The notes beneath the pieces were generated by a model that did no database searches, was not told where the DNA came from, and saw only the letters and a program-made list of their open reading frames with translations. A stretch of 64,000 nucleotides of DNA from Curtobacterium sp. UNCCL20 (GTDB lineage Bacteria > Actinomycetota > Actinomycetes > Actinomycetales > Microbacteriaceae): positions 665,378-729,377 of the forward strand of contig NZ_FNKG01000001.1 of the NCBI RefSeq assembly GCF_900101675.1, in the 5' to 3' direction. The translations under genes and the position numbers were made by a program. Of the stretch, positions 6,124-17,714 are shown piece by piece; position 1 is the first letter of the stretch; each line of letters opens with the position of its first letter.

Positions 6124-6229
6124 GTCCCCAGCGTGCGGACCGACCCGGTTCGTCCGCGTCGGGCGCGGGGCCCAAGCGCATGGTCCCGTCGACGGAACCG
6201 GTCACTTCCCAGCGTGAGCAGGAGTCGGC

Positions 6230-6265
6230 CTGGAGGCGCGTGGCGGCGCCGCCTCGCGCCTCCAG
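6230..6265. repeat. Palindromic repeat, full copy 1
   Basis: Arms CTGGAGGCGCG and CGCGCCTCCAG are perfect. The inner GGCGGC/GCCGCC also pairs, leaving one T-T mismatch, so the whole 36 bp folds into one hairpin. It belongs to the dispersed repeat family also seen at 17672, 38139 and 54848. Confidence 0.85.
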
Positions 6266-6360
6266 TTCCGCCCGGTCGTCGCGATCAGGGCTGACATCTA
6301 GCGCTTTGTGTCGTGCCGCCCGGGCGCGTAGTGGGTCACGGCTTCTGGTTTCGACCCCCT

Positions 6361-6484: not shown

Positions 6485-9400
6485 GTGTTCGCGACGTCGC
6501 CGTTGTCTGTTCGTTCTCGTTGGGTGATGCTCGCGGTCGTCACGTTGGTGGCGTTGCTCGGGTCGCTGTTGGCGGTGGTGAGTCCGCCGCAGGCTGCGCA
6601 TGCTGCGGTGACGGGTACGGGTGGTCAGTTCGTGCCGATGACCACGAACGCGCGGGTGTTCGACGGCGCGACGGGGAAGGGCACCTACGCAAGCGTTCCG
6701 ATTGCGGGTGTGAAGGGGTTGCCGTCGTCGGGTGTGGGTGCGGTGACGATGATGGTCACGGTCGTGAACCCGCAGGGGCAGGGGCAGCTGTTCGGCCGGC
6801 CTTCGTCGGCGGATGCGTCGACGCTGATGATGGTCTACAACTCCGGGATCCCTGGCAACACGTCGAACTCGTCCCTGCTCGCGGTCGGTGATGACGGTTC
6901 GCTGCAGGTCATGACCGAGACCGCGCAGACGCGGCTCATCATCGATGTCACGGGCTACTACACGTCGACGAAGAACGGTGTTGGCGCTGGCGGCCTGGTG
7001 CCGATGGCACCGACGCGGATCGTCGACACGCGGAGCGCACTGGGGGCGCCGAAGGCGCAGCTGGATGGCGGTGACTCGATCACGTTCCAGGTGACCGGTA
7101 GGAACGGGATTCCTGCGGGTGCAGCGGCGATCGCGGCGAACATCATCGTGATCAACCAGGAGGGCCTGCCTGGTTGGGTGCGCCCGTCACCGTCGGGTGG
7201 GACGAAGAGCACCGGCTCGTTGAACTACAACTCGACCAAGGGGTGGTCGACGGCGATGAGCGCGCAGGTCGCGGTCGGCTCCGATGGGAAGGTCACGATC
7301 GACACCGCGACCGGTGGTGGGCTGATCGACGTCCTCGTTGACGTGCAGGGCTACTTCCTGCCCTCCAATCCCGGTGGCGGTTTCACGCCGCAGACTGGCC
7401 GGCTGATCGACACGCGGAAGACGGCGAGCATTGCCTCCGGTGCGACGTTCACCGTGCAGGTTGGCGGTGTCCTTGGTGCGCCCTCGGTCGAATCGGGTCT
7501 GTCGGCGGCTGCGCTGACGTTCACCGCGGTCAACAACAGTGCCAGCGACACGTACGCGCAGGTCTACGCAGACGGTGCGGCGGTCCCGACGGGGTCCGCG
7601 ATCAACAGTGATGCGACCTCGATCATCTCGAACACGATCGTCACCGCGGTCGGGGCGAACGGGAAGATCCGGGTCCGGAACAACGGGCCGACGGCGATGG
7701 ATTACGTCATCGACTTCCAGGGCACCTACAACTCGTTGCCTGCGGGGCCGGCGGACACGGGTCGGACGGGTCAGCGGACGTCCGCGACGACGCTGCCGTT
7801 CCCGATCTCGGACCAGACCACCGCCTCGGTGGACGTGGGAACGGGCAACGTGCTCGTCACGACCAGTGCATTGGCGCTGCCGGGGGTGACGGGGAACGCG
7901 ACGATCGGGGCTGCGTACAACTCGCGTGCGGCGAACGTGGCGAACAGCAACACGATGGACGCGAACCGGTGGCAGTACGCCCTCGCCGGCGCGGGGGACC
8001 TCACCGCGAACGCTGCCGGCGTGGTCTACACGGACGCTGCGGGCACGGCGTGGCAGTTCAAACCGACCGGCACGCAGGGCGCGTTCACGACCCCGGCGGG
8101 GCTGCAGCAGACCCTGTCACGGGTGAACACGTCGGGCACGAACTACGAGTACACGCTGAAGGGGTGGACGACGAACTCGGTGACGCACTTCAACCTCGCC
8201 GGGCAGCCCACCTCGATCGTTGACCGGAACGGTAACCAGACCAGCTTCAACACCAGCGACGGGTACTCCCTGACGACCCTCGTCTCGACAGCCGGAACGA
8301 GTGGTGCGAAGACGGCGAAGTCTGCGTACTCGGGCGGCACGCAGACGTTCTCCCAGACCAGTGGGTCGAGCAGTCGGAGCGTGTCCTGGGTGAAGAACAG
8401 CAACGGTGACATCACCACGTACACGGACGCCACGGGCAAGAAGACCACCTTCGGGTACGCGAACGGGGACCTGACCTCGATCACGGCGCCGACGGGCGGG
8501 GTGACCACCTTCACCTACGACAGCTCCGACCGCGCCACGCAGGTGCAGCAGCGCAACACCACGGCGGGTTCGCCGGGGACTGCGGTGACGCGGTTCTCGT
8601 ACGCGAACGACACGACGACGCAGGTCGCGGACCCGCGGTCGGATCAGTCCGCGACGGTCGCAGCCGCGAAGCACACCACCTACACGCTCGACAGCAACGA
8701 CCTGGTCACCAAGGCGGTGGACGCTGCCGGCCGTGAACGGTCCCGCACCTACAACTTCGCGAACAACGGCGTCGCGAGCTCGACGGTCGGCGCCGGCACG
8801 ACGAGCTCGACATCGACGAACACCTACGACGGCAACAACGGGCAGTCGCTGACGCAGTCGCAGTCCGCATCCGGCAGCACAGGCTCCGCCACCTACGGGT
8901 CGTCATCGCCGACCGCATACCTGCCGGCTTCCACGACGGACAGCTCGAAGAACAAGACCAGCTACGGCTACGACGGCCCGGGCAACCAGTCCTCGACCGG
9001 AACCGGCAGCGGCCCCGAAGCATCGACCGCGAAGCTGACCTACAACAGCAAAGACAACGGCGACAAGTACGCTTGGGGGGCCGTGAAGACGGCGGTCGCT
9101 CCCGGGAACACGTCCGGCACTGTTTACGCGTACGACGCGAACAACCAGCTCGGCTCGATCACTCCGCCGGCGGGAACGAGCCTCGGTGTGCAGAAGTACG
9201 CGTACGACGACCTCGGCCGGGTGAAAAGCCACACCGATGGCGACGGCGGCGTGACCTCCTACACGTATGACAATGACGACCGCATGCTGACGACCGTGTT
9301 CAGCGACGGCACGCCGACGGTGACGAACACCTACGACGGCAACGGGAACCAGCTTACCGAGCAGTCCGCGACCGGCACCGTCACTAACAGCTACGACCAG

Positions 9401-11023
9401 CGGAACCGGCTGATCAGCACGGTGAACACCGCCGGCGGCGGGACCGTGTCCTACAGCTACGACTTGGCCGGGAACACCGTACAGGTCACCGACCAACACG
9501 GCACTCTCACCCACGCATACGACCCGGCAAACGCGCTGCAGTCCACGACGTACCCAACTGGGAACGGTGACACCGCGGAGCAGCTGTACTGGACCGATGA
9601 CCACGGCCGCCGCACCGACACCTGGCTAAAGGCGGTTCCGAACGCCAACCCGACGGAGAGCCCGACGTCGTGGCAAGCGCACCAGAAGATCACTTACGGC
9701 GCCTCCAATAAGGTCACCCGCGTCCAGGCATGGCAAGCCAGCGACCAGTCGAAGCCCGTCGTAGACCTGTCCTACTGCTACATCACCGGGATCACCGCCG
9801 GCAGTGATTGCACTGCGAGCACGAGTCCGAACGACACCGACAAGATCCAATGGGTCAAGGACAACGTCACCGGGCAGACCACCACCTACACGTACGACTC
9901 GAACAGTCGCCTCACGAAGGCCGCCGAGGCTAGCGGCGAGACGAACGTCACCTGGGCGTATACCTACGACGCCGCCGGGAACCGGCTCACCGCTATCAAG
10001 ACCGGCGATGCGACCAGCTCGCAAGGGCTGACCTACAACGCGGTTGGGCAGATCACCACCACTGGGTACACGTACGACGGAGTCGGGAACCTCACCGCAT
10101 CACCGTCGGCAACGTTCACCTACAACGGTGCGCAGCAGCTGACCTCCTCCACGAAGGACGGCGTGAAGACCACCTACGACTACGCCGGTGCTGACATGAG
10201 CAACCTGCTGCATCAGTCCACGGACGGCGGCGCGGAGTACGACTACACCTATGGAACTTCTCTTCGCACACTCGAGGTTGCGAACGATGGGATCGCGAGC
10301 ATGATCAGCGACCCGACAACGGGGCAGCCGCTCGATCTGCAGACTTCCGATGGCACCACGAGCATGTGGATCGTCGATGGCACCGGTAGTCCAGCCGCCG
10401 CGATTGCTGACACCGGGAAGACGGCGTACACGGTTTCCTACGACCCATACGGAGGCGAGAGGATCTCGACGGACAGCACGGCGAGTAGGGAGTGGCAGCA
10501 GAACCCATTTGGATTCAAATCCGGACTCCGCTCCAGCGACGCAAACGGGATGACGAAGTTCGGATACCGGTGGCAGACTAGCGGCACTGGCGGATGGCTC
10601 GAACGCGACACCCTTGACGTACCCCTCAGCCCAACAAACGCAAATCGATATGCATACGCCGCGGATGATCCTATCAATGCATCCGACCCTAGCGGTCGGG
10701 ACTATCTCACGGCAGGCGTGTCTGGATGTGCGGGCTTCTGTTTCAACTTCCAGATCAGCCACGAGGCAGGCGGTCAGTGGGGTTTCACGCGAGGGATCGG
10801 GGGAGGCGGAGACGTTGGCATCACTGGATACCTCGGCGCGCAGACTGGGCATTTGACAGAGGGCAAGACGCAGGACACGACTCTTGGTTTCGCCGGTGGT
10901 TTCGGTTTCCAAGGAACCCGATCGACCGACCTCGAAGGGGGCAATCCCGCTGCTGGTGCCGCGGCAACTGTTGGAGCGGGTATCGGCGTCAGTTCAGTTA
11001 GCGATTACACGAGTACTTGGTGA
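6485..11023 (+). CDS. Secreted RHS/YD-repeat protein (polymorphic-toxin type)
   Basis: 1512 aa. Residues 1-41 are a Sec signal peptide with one hydrophobic helix ending AHAA. Residues about 45-415 hold three related beta-rich units with RIVDTR-type and DVxGYF-type motifs, probably for surface attachment. A link DVGTGNVLVTT leads into many YD repeats (about 570-1330, for example YDDLGRV, YDPANAL), which form an RHS cocoon. The core ends in NRYAYAADDPINASDPSG, and the last 108 residues (10697-11020) are a glycine-rich tip of no recognised family. Codon use turns AT-richer near the 3' end, as expected for an exchanged tip. The stop overlaps the next ATG (TGATG). A toxic role for the tip is inferred from architecture only. 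Confidence 0.88.
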   Translation: MFATSPLSVRSRWVMLAVVTLVALLGSLLAVVSPPQAAHAAVTGTGGQFVPMTTNARVFDGATGKGTYASVPIAGVKGLPSSGVGAVTMMVTVVNPQGQGQLFGRPSSADASTLMMVYNSGIPGNTSNSSLLAVGDDGSLQVMTETAQTRLIIDVTGYYTSTKNGVGAGGLVPMAPTRIVDTRSALGAPKAQLDGGDSITFQVTGRNGIPAGAAAIAANIIVINQEGLPGWVRPSPSGGTKSTGSLNYNSTKGWSTAMSAQVAVGSDGKVTIDTATGGGLIDVLVDVQGYFLPSNPGGGFTPQTGRLIDTRKTASIASGATFTVQVGGVLGAPSVESGLSAAALTFTAVNNSASDTYAQVYADGAAVPTGSAINSDATSIISNTIVTAVGANGKIRVRNNGPTAMDYVIDFQGTYNSLPAGPADTGRTGQRTSATTLPFPISDQTTASVDVGTGNVLVTTSALALPGVTGNATIGAAYNSRAANVANSNTMDANRWQYALAGAGDLTANAAGVVYTDAAGTAWQFKPTGTQGAFTTPAGLQQTLSRVNTSGTNYEYTLKGWTTNSVTHFNLAGQPTSIVDRNGNQTSFNTSDGYSLTTLVSTAGTSGAKTAKSAYSGGTQTFSQTSGSSSRSVSWVKNSNGDITTYTDATGKKTTFGYANGDLTSITAPTGGVTTFTYDSSDRATQVQQRNTTAGSPGTAVTRFSYANDTTTQVADPRSDQSATVAAAKHTTYTLDSNDLVTKAVDAAGRERSRTYNFANNGVASSTVGAGTTSSTSTNTYDGNNGQSLTQSQSASGSTGSATYGSSSPTAYLPASTTDSSKNKTSYGYDGPGNQSSTGTGSGPEASTAKLTYNSKDNGDKYAWGAVKTAVAPGNTSGTVYAYDANNQLGSITPPAGTSLGVQKYAYDDLGRVKSHTDGDGGVTSYTYDNDDRMLTTVFSDGTPTVTNTYDGNGNQLTEQSATGTVTNSYDQRNRLISTVNTAGGGTVSYSYDLAGNTVQVTDQHGTLTHAYDPANALQSTTYPTGNGDTAEQLYWTDDHGRRTDTWLKAVPNANPTESPTSWQAHQKITYGASNKVTRVQAWQASDQSKPVVDLSYCYITGITAGSDCTASTSPNDTDKIQWVKDNVTGQTTTYTYDSNSRLTKAAEASGETNVTWAYTYDAAGNRLTAIKTGDATSSQGLTYNAVGQITTTGYTYDGVGNLTASPSATFTYNGAQQLTSSTKDGVKTTYDYAGADMSNLLHQSTDGGAEYDYTYGTSLRTLEVANDGIASMISDPTTGQPLDLQTSDGTTSMWIVDGTGSPAAAIADTGKTAYTVSYDPYGGERISTDSTASREWQQNPFGFKSGLRSSDANGMTKFGYRWQTSGTGGWLERDTLDVPLSPTNANRYAYAADDPINASDPSGRDYLTAGVSGCAGFCFNFQISHEAGGQWGFTRGIGGGGDVGITGYLGAQTGHLTEGKTQDTTLGFAGGFGFQGTRSTDLEGGNPAAGAAATVGAGIGVSSVSDYTSTW

Positions 11024-11256
11024 TGAGCGACCTGCAGGGCGAGATGCTCGTCACCGGCCTGATCATAACGATCATTGGGGTGGTTGTTTTCCTGGCAGCC
11101 GCATCGGTGAGTGCCTCTATCCAGAGAGGTATCAGGTCGCTGTTTTCGTTGGATCTCGCCAGCAGTCGATCGGCGCTTTGGGGGGTTCGAGGGGCTGGAA
11201 TCTTTTTCGTGCTTTTCGGGCTAGCACTTGGGGCACTCGCGCTGTTCACAATTTAG
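11023..11256 (+). CDS. Small membrane protein coupled to the RHS gene, possible immunity protein
   Basis: 77 aa with two strongly hydrophobic helices (LVTGLIITIIGVVVFLAA and IFFVLFGLALGALALF) and a short basic/polar loop between them. Its ATG overlaps the RHS stop as TGATG, so it is translated by re-initiation. Position directly after a polymorphic-toxin tip is the classic place for the cognate immunity gene; no family is recognised, so that role is inference. Confidence 0.7.
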   Translation: MSDLQGEMLVTGLIITIIGVVVFLAAASVSASIQRGIRSLFSLDLASSRSALWGVRGAGIFFVLFGLALGALALFTI

Positions 11257-11515
11257 GAGAGTAGCTAGCGAAGACTGACAGGTCCACTACCGGCGAAGCC
11301 GAGCCCTGACGGTCGCGTCGGCTGGTCCTGGACTCGATGGCGAGAGGTTCCGGATGCAAGCCAAGGTCATGAACGGGTGATGGACGCTCGCTAGCAGCTT
11401 GAACCTGAGTGACTCCAATCTGTTCCGCCGCTAGGAGCACCCTCACCATGGCGATGTACCCGAGGGACGGGAATGCTGCAGGATTGGTTGACTCGTTCGT
11501 TTAGGCCGCGAGTGC
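11257..11515. other. Gap between the RHS unit and displaced tip 1
   Basis: 259 bp with no supported gene. It has several stop codons in all frames and the inverted motif GCTAGCGA/TCGCTAGC (about 11267 and 11389). Homology to the RHS core resumes abruptly near 11516. Confidence 0.5.
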
Positions 11516-11857
11516 GACGCCAACCGCTACGCCTACGCCGGTGACGACCCAACCAACTTTTTTGACCCCGTCGGTCTCGGCTTTGGTGAGGACCTGGCTA
11601 GCACCGTGATCGGTGGAGTCGTTGGAGTGGCGGTAGCTGGCTCGATCTGCGTGGCGACAGGCGCAGAATCACTCGGCACTGGATGCGCGCTGGGAGCTGT
11701 TGCTGGTAGCACCGTGGGGACTGCCGTCGGAAACGCCTCCGTTGGGCTTCTCGAAGGAGAAAGTGCGGGACAAGTTGGAACGCGACTCTGGCAAGGCGCT
11801 GTTGTAGGCGCCGTGGCCGGTGGCATCGCTGTTGGCGGCGCGGCACTATTCCTCTAA
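11516..11857 (+). pseudogene. Displaced RHS C-terminal tip 1 (no start, core truncated)
   Basis: The frame enters at GAC GCC AAC and reads NRYAYAGDDPTNFFDPVG, the end of an RHS core, followed by a new tip of about 90 aa with two glycine-zipper membrane segments (VIGGVVGVAVAGSI and AVVGAVAGGIAVGGAA). No start codon or signal exists for the core part, so it is not a complete gene. An internal ATG at 11606 could express the tip only. It fits a stored toxin-tip module that can be swapped by recombination with the intact RHS gene. Confidence 0.75.
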
Positions 11858-11866
11858 GGAGAAGGT

Positions 11867-12076
11867 ATGACGAAATCTGGTTCGCAGCGGCGGGCGTCGC
11901 TGAGTCTGATGGTCACCATTGCTACTTACTTCCTCGCGATCGTTTTCATCGTTCTCCCGCTGGTAAACGCCAATTGGGCGCGAGCTTCCGTTATTTCATT
12001 CATTGCAGCTGCAATATGTGTGGTCTGGGGCAGCGTGTTCATCTGGGTGAGGAAACGAAACTTGCGCCAAAGTTGA
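11867..12076 (+). CDS. Small membrane protein, possible immunity partner of tip 1
   Basis: 69 aa. Two membrane helices (IATYFLAIVFIVLPLV and ISFIAAAICVVWGSVFI) and basic ends (RKRNLRQS). The ribosome site GGAGAAGG overlaps the stop of the displaced tip upstream, nine bases apart, so the two were built as one unit. GC is well below the window average. The immunity role is inferred from position. Confidence 0.65.
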   Translation: MTKSGSQRRASLSLMVTIATYFLAIVFIVLPLVNANWARASVISFIAAAICVVWGSVFIWVRKRNLRQS

Positions 12077-12141
12077 TGTGCGAGCGGTCTTGGATGTGAG
12101 CGGGATAGTCGCTGTCGGAGCGCTGGCAGCGCCGTCGCGCT

Positions 12142-12152
12142 CCCCCCCCCCC
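12142..12152. repeat. Homopolymer tract C(11)
   Basis: Eleven consecutive C residues between the tip-1 unit and its terminator hairpin. It is not inside a gene here; such tracts are slippage-prone. Confidence 0.7.
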
Positions 12153-12162
12153 ACGTGACCAG

Positions 12163-12197
12163 GAAGAGGACCTCACATCAGCGGCGAGGTCCTCTTC
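12163..12197 (+). terminator. Hairpin after the tip-1 unit
   Basis: Arms GAAGAGGACCTC and GAGGTCCTCTTC (12 bp, perfect) with an 11-nt loop. A likely intrinsic terminator, though no long U tract follows. Confidence 0.7.
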
Positions 12198-12261
12198 GCT
12201 GTTCGCTCGTTATTGTCCGAGACCTCGCGCACGATAAGCACTATCCCGAAGACTCGCAGCT

Positions 12262-12586
12262 AACCCCTTCGCGTTCAAGGCTGGCATCGAGGACACCCGC
12301 ACCGGGCTCGTGAAGTTCGGACAGCGCTGGTACGACCCGTACTGGGGGTCCTGGACCCAGCAAGATACCCTCGACAGCCCCCTCGACAGCCCCCTCGACA
12401 GCCCCCTCGACCCCTCCAACGGCAACCGCTACGCCTACGCCGCCGCCGACCCCATCAGCCGGCGTTCTCGACAGTCGCTACGAGGTGTACACGGATACCG
12501 ACGCTTGCGATGCTCAGATCGCGAGGGATCGTGAGACCGGCGCTCGGTGGAAGGCCGGCTACGTGGCGCCTTGTCAGACCTTCTGA
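12262..12586 (+). pseudogene. Displaced RHS tip 2, frameshifted remnant
   Basis: Reads NPFAFKAGIEDTRTGLVKFG, then QRWYDPYWGSWTQQDTL, then NRYAYAAADPIS, a clear RHS core end with no start. A 12-bp in-frame repeat (12370-12405) gives LDSP three times. Around 12455-12464 the frame is lost: the core frame runs into ISRRSRQ, while a +1 frame continues as VLDSRYEVYTDTDAC and ends APCQTF at 12586. The last part looks like the end of an unrelated gene joined by a deletion. A hairpin follows at 12601. Confidence 0.7.
12370..12405 (+). repeat. Three tandem copies of a 12-bp unit
   Basis: CTCGACAGCCCC repeated three times, followed by a partial copy (CTCGACCCC). It keeps the frame of the RHS remnant and encodes LDSP three times, likely by replication slippage. 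Confidence 0.85.
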
Positions 12587-12600
12587 CGAGGAGCCCCCTA

Positions 12601-12637
12601 GGAAAGACGTCTCGCTCGTCGGGCGAGGCGTCTTTCC
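12601..12637 (+). terminator. Hairpin after RHS remnant 2
   Basis: Arms GGAAAGACGTCTCGC and GCGAGGCGTCTTTCC pair except for one position, with a short loop. It shares the core AGACGTCTCGC with the hairpin at 13022-13055. Confidence 0.7.
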
Positions 12638-12685
12638 CCGCCGCTCTCAACCCGCATCATCTGGTGGGTGTCCATTGGATCGGAG

Positions 12686-12691
12686 TAGCGT
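12686..12691 (+). promoter_or_regulatory. -10 box TAGCGT, leaderless start
   Basis: TAGCGT is followed by seven bases and then ATG 12699, which supports that short frame as a real gene. Confidence 0.5.
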
Positions 12692-12698
12692 CACCGAT

Positions 12699-12893
12699 AT
12701 GACTGACGATCAGACGAGGGGGTGTTACGGCCTTGTGACCGGGAGTGTCCTTCTCCTGGTCGGTCTTGCATTTCTCGTGAGTCAAGCAAACGTGGTCGCC
12801 GGCGTCATATTCGTTTTCGTTGGCGCTGTCATGCTCATCGTAGGAACCCTCGTGCCTTGGGCGCGTGGCGGGCGTCCTCGGCCTCCTCGTTGA
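12699..12893 (+). CDS. Small two-helix membrane protein
   Basis: 64 aa: MTDDQTRGCYG, then two hydrophobic helices (LVTGSVLLLVGLAFLVS and GVIFVFVGAVMLIVGTLV) and a basic tail GGRPRPPR. The size and two-helix layout resemble the two other small membrane genes of this island, so it may be a third immunity-type gene, or unrelated. A -10 box seven bases upstream supports this start rather than the longer frame that begins inside the RHS remnant. Confidence 0.6.
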   Translation: MTDDQTRGCYGLVTGSVLLLVGLAFLVSQANVVAGVIFVFVGAVMLIVGTLVPWARGGRPRPPR

Positions 12894-12901
12894 GGTTCGC
12901 C

Positions 12902-13393
12902 GTCTAACCGTGTGCACGCCGGCACAGCCGCTGAGTGGCTTCGGCTGACGAGAATTGGCGCCATGGATCGTGGGCTGATTGACGATTCGCATCACGTCGA
13001 CGACGACGATGGCGCCCGACAAGACGTCTCGCATCGCTAGGGTTGCGAGACGTCTCGCCGACACCTTGGTCATGGGTGCGGGAACGGCGGAAGTTCTCGG
13101 TCGGCGAGTTTCGTAACCGTGTATCGCAAGTGCGCTCGATGATCGCTGTCCTGCAAGTGGGTTGCGAGACGGCAGCCGCATCCTGGAGAAGCTGCTCGAG
13201 CAGGCGCGAACGTCGACCCGAAAGCAGGACTCTGACCCGCGGGAACAGGATTCGCTTGTCGCTGAGGTCTTCCGCGATGCGCTGAAGGGAGACGGTGTCC
13301 GGCTCGACGGAGTCGGGTCCGGTCGCCAGCGCACCCCTCGACGGGACGGTCTCCGTCGAAACGATCGCGATCGCGGTCACGGCCGCTCGTCCG
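12902..13393. other. Region without a supported gene
   Basis: About 490 bp. It holds one strong hairpin (13022-13055). Frames here are long only because of GC content; a plus-strand stretch from 13162 (RILEKLLEQART...) could be a gene fragment but has no start, partner or recognised family. Probably decayed DNA at the right edge of the RHS island. Confidence 0.5.
13022..13055. terminator. Hairpin AGACGTCTCGCA / TGCGAGACGTCT
   Basis: Perfect 12-bp arms and a 10-nt loop. The sequence is a variant of the hairpin at 12601, so the two may mark the borders of one small cassette. Confidence 0.6.
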
Positions 13394-17610: not shown

Positions 17611-17671
17611 CGCCGTGACCGTGCGCGGCCGTCGTGTCCCACGGGTCGCCGTCCCAGCGTGACCAGATGCG

Positions 17672-17713
17672 GGCCTGGAGGCGCGTGGCGGCGCCGCCAC
17701 GCGCCTCCAGGCC
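17672..17713. repeat. Palindromic repeat, full copy 2 (perfect 42 bp)
   Basis: Left arm begins GGCCTGGAGGCGCGTGGCGG and the right arm is its exact reverse complement, 21 bp each with no spacer. It lies between the arsR stop (17610) and the SDR stop (17715), so it can act as a two-way terminator as well as being a repeat-family member. Confidence 0.9.
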
Positions 17714-17714
17714 G

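Follow-up and report, generated by a model that had tools for sequence, protein, structure and literature searches.

We analysed a 64,000-nt stretch of Curtobacterium sp. UNCCL20 (genome 3.85 Mb, six contigs), here called the window, to which all coordinates refer; it carries a predicted polymorphic-toxin locus of the RHS family. The principal feature is a single open RHS frame of 1512 residues on the forward strand (6485–11023, GTG start, stop included), with profile matches to RHS_repeat (E 3.6e-30) and Rhs_assc_core (E 1.1e-9). Its stop codon overlaps, as ATGA, the start of a gene for a 77-residue protein with two hydrophobic helices (small membrane gene 1, predicted immunity, 11023–11256, +). 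Downstream on the same strand lie two displaced core ends with different C-terminal domains (tips) and two further small membrane genes. A genome search with the window RHS protein as query finds one full RHS gene, and the sole other match is the second displaced core end. Taking all the evidence below together, we think it fairly likely that this is a secreted Rhs toxin locus in which an exchangeable short tip acts as a disulfide-stapled, membrane-permeabilising antibacterial domain and the small membrane gene confers immunity.

The N terminus of the RHS protein is hydrophobic and signal-like, ending in AHA-A near residue 40 as judged by eye and by hydropathy. A comparable stretch lies near the start of 20 of the 24 frames of this RHS class, followed by an AxA-type site in 19, and was not found within the first 115 residues of the remaining four. 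The locus proteins gave no Pfam match to an LXG domain at E 1, the window RHS protein having its signal-like start instead, and no profile match to a CdiA-type scaffold; DUF95 and ATP-binding cassette (ABC) transporter genes had no match among these proteins or the ten flanking open reading frames (ORFs) scanned. A promoter scan returned no sigma-70-like site, although a sigma-70 model says little for an actinobacterium. The description of an intact, secreted RHS gene with a coupled small membrane gene, given by an earlier sequence-only reading, agrees with these results, export being predicted from the signal-like start.

An AlphaFold model of residues 427–1512 (7763–11020; 33 sequences) forms a shell, with a predicted local distance difference test score (pLDDT) of 79 and a predicted TM-score of 0.80. 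Foldseek places its RHS/YD portion (residues 427–1404, 7763–10696, +) among Rhs shells, including Tse5 (E 4e-41, TM-score 0.43), RhsA (E 3e-39, TM-score 0.44) and RhsP, with an overall range of E 4e-41 to 2e-37 and TM-scores of 0.32–0.44. The window gene is thus modelled with the closed shell of YD/RHS repeats that defines Rhs polymorphic toxins. Of the Teneurin-like superfold (FN-plug, NHL and YD-shell), the model covers the YD/RHS shell part. Two points weigh against too close an equation: the TM-scores to both Tse5 and RhsA are below 0.5, and the tip has no confident model within the shell piece. The latter is in line with cryoelectron microscopy maps of Rhs proteins, in which the tip is mostly unresolved (PMC10684867).

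The shell closes in a core end (10616–10696, +) bearing a pair of Asp residues (GAC at 10616 and 10685), the predicted autoproteolytic cut site before the tip. The pair lies 23 residues apart ahead of the tip in all 24 active genes of the class, a set that includes the window gene and is defined by an intact frame of 1349–1698 residues with the core-end motif. This spacing equals that of the Tse5 protease motif, DPXGX19DPXG (PMC10684867), the first motif here being DTLDxPL rather than DPxG. The paired-Asp core end of Rhs polymorphic toxins is therefore present in the sequence, and autoproteolytic cleavage is predicted. Column conservation among the 24 active genes is 0.69–0.85 across the last 143 core residues; at the core end, three consecutive bins of 13 residues score 0.78, 0.62 and 0.15. 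Third-position G+C content in the window gene is 0.83–0.97 along most of the shell, declines to 0.77 and reaches 0.60–0.63 in the final segments. The active, or main, tip that follows (10697–11020, +) has 108 residues, 25% of them Gly, and two Cys at tip residues 11 and 15; we assign it to a beta class described below.

To compare tips we used the genus, in which TIGR03696 was found in 55 of 66 genomes; a selection of the matching regions was fetched by size class (20 + 16, plus locus L008; G and L numbers denote genomes and loci). Tips of this RHS class have 53–111 residues, and those of other RHS classes in the genus are longer, roughly 150–260 residues (nine plus-strand loci; several minus-strand loci likewise). 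The tips of L052, L057, L059, L064, L066, L067 and L074 were counted as other, L053, L068, L069 and L071–L073 were left out, and the core end of L070 (G058) was excluded. For a set of 42 loci, repeat Curtobacterium genomes were not reused, L104, L106, L107 and L111 are without the core-end motif, and L095 and L112–L116 were left out.

Eight displaced tips lie behind active genes, and for five of them another species has a matching active tip. In the window main tip, the last 56 residues correspond to a displaced remnant in G022 (86%, E 1e-29). Active tips of G063, G008 and G055 resemble displaced tips in G022 (91% over 32 residues), G015 (58%) and G035 (74%), respectively, and the active tip of G038 resembles the first displaced tip of the window (39% over 64 residues). 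The displaced tips of G002 and G061 and the second one of the window have no match among the active tips. Core and tip identity are also uncoupled: G015, G016 and G055 have cores 94–96% identical and three unrelated tips, and G044 and G062a have tips 97% identical on cores that are 56% identical. The sequence-only reading had proposed a comparison of strains as a check for tip swapping; comparison of related genomes finds the same tips on distant cores and unrelated tips on near-identical ones, and the layout it had ascribed to exchange by recombination is supported. The sequences indicate that the variable C-terminal tip is exchanged at the core end.

The displaced cassettes of the window are in different states of decay. 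Core end 1 (ANRYAYAGDDPTNFFDPVG, 11519–11575, +; profile and alignment) leads into tip 1 (11576–11857, +), a 93-residue domain with glycine zippers and two Cys. Its frame is open to 11857 and has no ATG, GTG or TTG ahead of the tip, so that tip 1 as it stands is a silent cassette. A search of the protein database with core end 1 and tip 1 gave nothing at E ≤ 0.01 among 294 candidates. Core end 2 (QRWYDPYWGSWTQQDTLD, 12262–12459, +) resembles a second core lineage (QRWY..WTQQDT) rather than the window gene's own, and includes three copies of a 12-bp unit coding for LDSP (12370–12405). This core stays in frame until about 12459, and the 42 C-terminal residues of tip 2 are read in a different frame (12458–12583; 12458–12586 with the stop, +), with two Cys. 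The two fragments with different tips noted in the sequence-only reading are therefore both present, with the qualification that tip 2 is frame-broken and tip 1 lacks a start codon.

That reading had also taken a 19-bp sequence common to both fragments as a sign of exchange. The 19-mer, CAACCGCTACGCCTACGCC, is indeed present without mismatch at 11521 and 12423, and a search of the window allowing three mismatches gave no further copy (chance expectation 0.01). As evidence of exchange it is weaker than claimed: none of the 24 active genes carries it, the window gene included, and we reject it as a recombination site. What it encodes is the conserved NRYAYA end of the core, and the nearest related genes are a single base away from it; it is therefore a mark of homology between core ends, from which a role as a recombination signal need not follow.

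Traces of mobile elements accompany the cassettes. Immediately before core end 1 lies a 50-bp remnant of the 3' end of an IS3-like transposase (11469–11518, minus strand; nucleotide match), 90% identical to G000:C3:457372, a frame with weak rve_3/rve_2 matches. The same stretch is found in a transposase (rve E 1e-23) which, with a serine recombinase (Resolvase E 5e-38), lies about 1–3.3 kb behind the RHS gene of G049 (L056). A weak remnant at 13192–13347 resembles that serine resolvase (46% over 52 residues), so mobile-element genes occur near RHS loci in two species. A common chromosomal site for the loci was considered and rejected, none of seven flanking window proteins being closely matched in other loci and three weakly (29–37%), in a comparison covering about 5–7 kb per fetched locus; upstream of the start codon, sequence common to the loci extends no further than about 136 bp. 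A palindromic repeat (6207–6271 and 17652–17714; about 90% over 59 bp, both orientations) has one copy upstream of the RHS gene and the other about 4.8 kb past the last small gene, with copies of about 80% identity in G022. Outside Curtobacterium, tandem core-end/tip arrays occur in Leifsonia aquatica (L097, three tips) and Frondihabitans (L103, two), and Arthrobacter L094 has a decayed extra core end in the layout of the window.

Small membrane genes 2 (11867–12076, +) and 3 (12699–12893, +), both predicted orphan immunity genes, encode proteins of 69 and 64 residues. As the sequence-only reading had described, all three small proteins of the window have two hydrophobic stretches, assigned by hydropathy for proteins 1 and 2 and by eye for protein 3, in which the script scored one segment only; likewise, tip 1 is followed by its own small gene, with an AAGGAG ribosome site that precedes the ATG at 11867 and overlaps the tip 1 stop codon. 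When 5.8 billion proteins were searched (word-limited), small protein 1 matched a single sequence other than itself, at 82% identity, encoded on an ENA contig of 2162 bp. In G022 (L008), the RHS gene has behind it two displaced small genes that are 90–92% identical to two on a G062 contig (L064), a shared archive in two species.

The downstream fragments might simply be decayed debris of rearrangement, with orphan small genes that have no present role. The missing start codon of tip 1, the frame change in tip 2, the IS3-like remnant beside tip 1 and the odd Cys numbers of displaced G022 remnants (see below) all fit such decay, whereas all three small genes remain open in the window and the displaced small genes common to G022 and G062 retain their high identity (dN/dS, the ratio of nonsynonymous to synonymous substitution rates, is about 0.5, at best weak selection). 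We regard this as possible, if rather doubtful; it is compatible with a toxin and immunity function for the active pair.

Small genes of this kind are a regular companion of the RHS class. With the criterion of an ORF of 45–130 residues starting −60 to +150 of the stop and containing at least two hydrophobic segments, a two-helix small ORF follows the RHS gene in 23 of 24 Curtobacterium loci and in 14 of 17 others (16 non-Curtobacterium loci and G053), or 37 of 41, versus 4 of 157 control genes drawn from the other long genes of the window and of the loci compared. Tip and small gene also travel together. Among 36 tip/small-gene modules (the G061 main tip, G052 and window tip 2 left out), giving 630 pairs, homology of the small genes accompanies tip homology in 11 of 23 pairs and is seen in 1 of the 607 pairs without homologous tips (Fisher p 1e-16, kinship uncorrected). 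The homologue of small gene 1 in G022 (55%) lies beside the displaced copy of the main tip, with a change of frame near its end, and small-gene identities in three other exchanged cassettes are 63%, 39% and 53%. Small gene 2 is 35% identical to the small gene beside a G055 tip, which has no direct match to tip 1; the small genes of tip 1 and G038 do not match each other. Nine pairs combine a tip identity of 57% or more with alignable sequence in both parts; by local identity, and with some of the pairs being related, the small protein has diverged further than the tip in every one. This asymmetry matches that reported for the ionophore toxins of contact-dependent growth inhibition (CDI), whose immunity proteins are less alike than the toxins (PMC11630599). 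Small-gene dN/dS (NG86) is 0.15–0.57 in 7 of 13 pairs.

Several observations weaken this pairing. G061 has no two-helix gene next to its RHS gene, having a 235-residue ORF with hydrophobic stretches there instead, and Streptomyces L108 has none either; the beta-class loci L109, L118 and L119 (L119 outside the 41) are followed by one-helix genes of 44–45 residues. Twelve of the 23 tip-homologous pairs have no detectable small-gene match, the G032/G063 pair among them, with tips 59% alike over 29 residues. The displaced beta-class tip of Streptomyces L102 is likewise followed by a similar-looking one-helix protein of 44–45 residues. Overall, the small gene lies directly downstream of the tip and is co-inherited with it, and is a predicted immunity gene.

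Co-inherited and fast-diverging pairs, together with the even Cys numbers reported below, would also fit a secreted ligand and its receptor that serve kin recognition or signalling without killing. We consider this unlikely: displaced orphan small genes are expected of immunity more than of a receptor without its ligand, and the Rhs shells found by fold, Tse5 and RhsA, carry toxins.

A regularity that the sequence-only reading had missed bears on the chemistry proposed for the toxin tip. All 60 open tips have an even number of Cys (58 with two or four, two with none). A first count of 57 of 57 comprises the 24 active Curtobacterium tips (19 with two, five with four), 12 displaced or partial-locus tips (11 with two, one with four), 19 tips of other genera (15 with two, two with four, two with none) and two from additional Curtobacterium loci, with four (L013) and two (L014). 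Three tips beyond these agree, with two in L015 and four each in L017 and L119. Control C termini have odd numbers in 41 of 170 cases, and the small proteins show no parity. At the observed Cys content, which is 3.0% in the 24 active tips versus 0.19% in their cores, the chance of 24 even tips in 24 is 7e-8. Single-linkage clustering sorts the 57 tips into 35 families; taking one tip from each, the chance is about 4e-11, assuming 80-residue tips and independent families. Between relatives, Cys are absent in pairs: G013, G053 and G001 have four, of which the first two are not present in G012 and G049. The majority of beta-class tips combine C-x3-C with two distal Cys, and the window main tip is without both distal ones.

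The count leaves aside decayed remnants: G022 dispA (three), G022 dispB (one), G058_9112 (none) and window tip 2 (two). The odd numbers in the two G022 remnants are an exception to parity, one that is expected if the constraint is gone. Also unfavourable are the two of 57 tips without any Cys and the dependence of the parity on a tip start placed after DPxG, some core ends carrying an extra Cys (VGCDP) just before it. Even numbers and pairwise absence can be read as disulfides formed after export, which suggests that the tips are disulfide-stapled and act outside the cytoplasm.

The tips might instead enter the target cytoplasm and act there, with the membrane proteins blocking entry, and Zhang et al. 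(2012) suggested that immunity proteins with two helices might keep the toxin from being taken up (PMC3482391). The paired Cys, however, argue for action in an oxidising place, and the tips are 53–111 residues long, mostly hydrophobic and without an enzyme family beyond one chance-level match, so we hold this to be improbable as well.

The match in question arose in profile searches of 25 tips, which gave no Pfam match at E 0.01 and a single NCBIfam match at chance level (E 0.0086, carboxykinase). The main tip and tip 1 have no match in either database; the sequence-only reading, which recognised no toxin family in them, stands on this point, and the hidden Markov model and structure searches that it called for yield no family and no significant fold match for the main tip. 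Its observation of glycine zippers in tip 1 also holds above composition shuffles (p 0.024). In the main tip zippers are not above composition shuffles (p 0.43), and the tip is beta-patterned instead: an amphipathic beta pattern exceeds shuffles in the main tip (G000), G032, G061 and G063 (p 0.003–0.02), and an AlphaFold model of the main tip contains almost only strands. Relatives of this beta class end RHS genes in Micromonospora (L109), G261 and G326, and one is displaced in Streptomyces (L102). The G326 match (L119) is an RHS C terminus with four Cys, followed by a 45-residue one-helix gene. Of 394 genomes, the beta-class profile matched three (the window's own, G261 and G326), each at an RHS C terminus.

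The division into two fold types has its weak points. Only 8 of the 25 tips have zippers in excess of composition shuffles; the hydrophobic tip of G048, which is of a different type, shows the beta pattern too (p 0.01); the sequence link of the main tip to the beta class is weak (E 0.008 to G061); and the model of the main tip is weak as well (pLDDT 60.6), with no Foldseek match in the PDB at E ≤ 0.001. A PDB sequence search with the beta alignment returned only flagellin, at E 0.96.

Tip dN/dS (NG86) is 0.01–0.19 in 8 of 11 pairs with dS defined, and 0.05 between the main tip and its G022 remnant, which supports the prediction of purifying selection on the tips. Two points temper this: YN00 gives 0.12–0.88 in the seven pairs for which it gave a value, indicating weaker selection, and dS in tip pairs is often near saturation.

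A non-toxic surface protein that uses its tips to anchor itself in membrane or wall, or to bind a partner, with the small proteins as docking sites, would account for short, mostly hydrophobic tips with a small membrane gene nearly always next to them. It would not be expected to carry 35 tip families on a conserved core, to uncouple tip from core or to leave displaced, spent cassettes. We looked for tips within non-toxic wall proteins, the finding that would have counted against a toxin, and found none; in a word-limited search of 5.8 billion proteins the main tip matched itself only. An anchor role thus appears improbable.

The mechanism we propose starts from what the sequences display directly: the core/tip boundary, the reshuffling of tips and cores, the co-inheritance of tip and small gene, the displaced tips and the even Cys numbers of open tips. 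Toxicity, pores and protection are predicted properties of the tips and small proteins. The RHS protein would leave the cell by the Sec route, and the Asp pair would cut the tip free inside the shell, enclosure keeping the hydrophobic tip harmless. Outside the cell, the tip would be oxidised and insert into the cytoplasmic membrane of a neighbouring bacterium, as a helical glycine-zipper type in the case of tip 1 and as an amphipathic beta type in that of the main tip. The small membrane protein would block insertion or assembly in the producer's own membrane. A new tip and immunity cassette may recombine in at the core end and push the old pair downstream, where the tip would go silent and decay; the small gene could stay as protection against neighbours still firing the old tip.

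The known enterobacterial Rhs tips are mostly cytoplasmic enzymes, and it is in tip chemistry that Rhs orphans and WapA loci differ from the window. These loci resemble it in their truncated core ends and in old effector-immunity pairs pushed downstream (PMC12704120; PMC3967940). By analogy, the closest tested parallels to the proposed mechanism are Tse5 and the bacterial Teneurin-like protein BiTLP. Tse5, a pore-forming Rhs effector of Pseudomonas aeruginosa, shares the Rhs shell fold, the Asp spacing and the membrane-acting tip predicted here (PMC10684867), and its immunity protein Tsi5 is membrane-bound (PMC12744356). It differs in its type VI secretion from a Gram-negative host and its C terminus of about 16 kDa (PMC10684867), compared with a signal-like start, tips of 53–111 residues and paired Cys here. 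In BiTLP, as is predicted here, the shell hides a short C-terminal domain (about 93 residues), nearly every TLP gene has immunity genes downstream of it, and a disulfide involves the C-terminal domain, which inhibited Escherichia coli growth only when exported; the shell is of another subtype, and the disulfide joins the tip to the N-terminal plug (PMC13018210), whereas the Cys here appear to pair within the tip. No mention of a displaced cassette array was found in the accessible part of that paper.

Other systems share some of these features. CDI ionophores also have polymorphic tips, which depolarise, two toxins about 78% identical having immunity proteins 36% identical, and differ in CdiA delivery and in an entry domain followed by a five-helix bundle (PMC11630599). 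The glycine-zipper LXG toxins EsxX and TelE and the related TspA have a membrane-depolarising C terminus, polytopic membrane immunity proteins and orphan immunity genes in islands; they use type VII secretion, and a zipper is significant in only a minority of the tips here (PMC12744356). Circular bacteriocins likewise combine a small antibacterial peptide with a small, cationic, hydrophobic immunity protein, but are backbone-circularised, with ABC transporter and DUF95 genes and no Rhs shell (PMC6131525). In a 2012 catalogue all but a few polymorphic-toxin immunity proteins were cytoplasmic and globular; it names two immunity families with two helices and a single pore-forming tip domain, which at that time was confined to proteobacteria (PMC3482391). 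A literature search, with most subscription papers outside its reach, found no description of this actinobacterial RHS class or of Cys parity in Rhs tips.

We see about an even chance that the wider picture is one of an actinobacterial, Sec-secreted Rhs lineage dedicated to bacteriocin-like mini-tips of 53–111 residues that fold outside the cell around one or two disulfides. On this view the tips would fall into dozens of unrelated families and two folds, one helical with glycine zippers and the other a new amphipathic beta type; each would have its own tiny immunity protein in the membrane, and discarded pairs would form a downstream immunity archive. A whole Rhs lineage seems, by prediction, specialised in short membrane-acting tips, recognisable by an even number of Cys, richness in Gly, a length of 53–111 residues and a small membrane gene behind. 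If true, this would explain how Gram-positive bacteria use a secreted Rhs protein without moving the tip across the target membrane, and many unannotated small proteins would become interpretable. The lineage would then also offer a natural library of peptide/immunity pairs in which the immunity side diverges faster than the toxin side.

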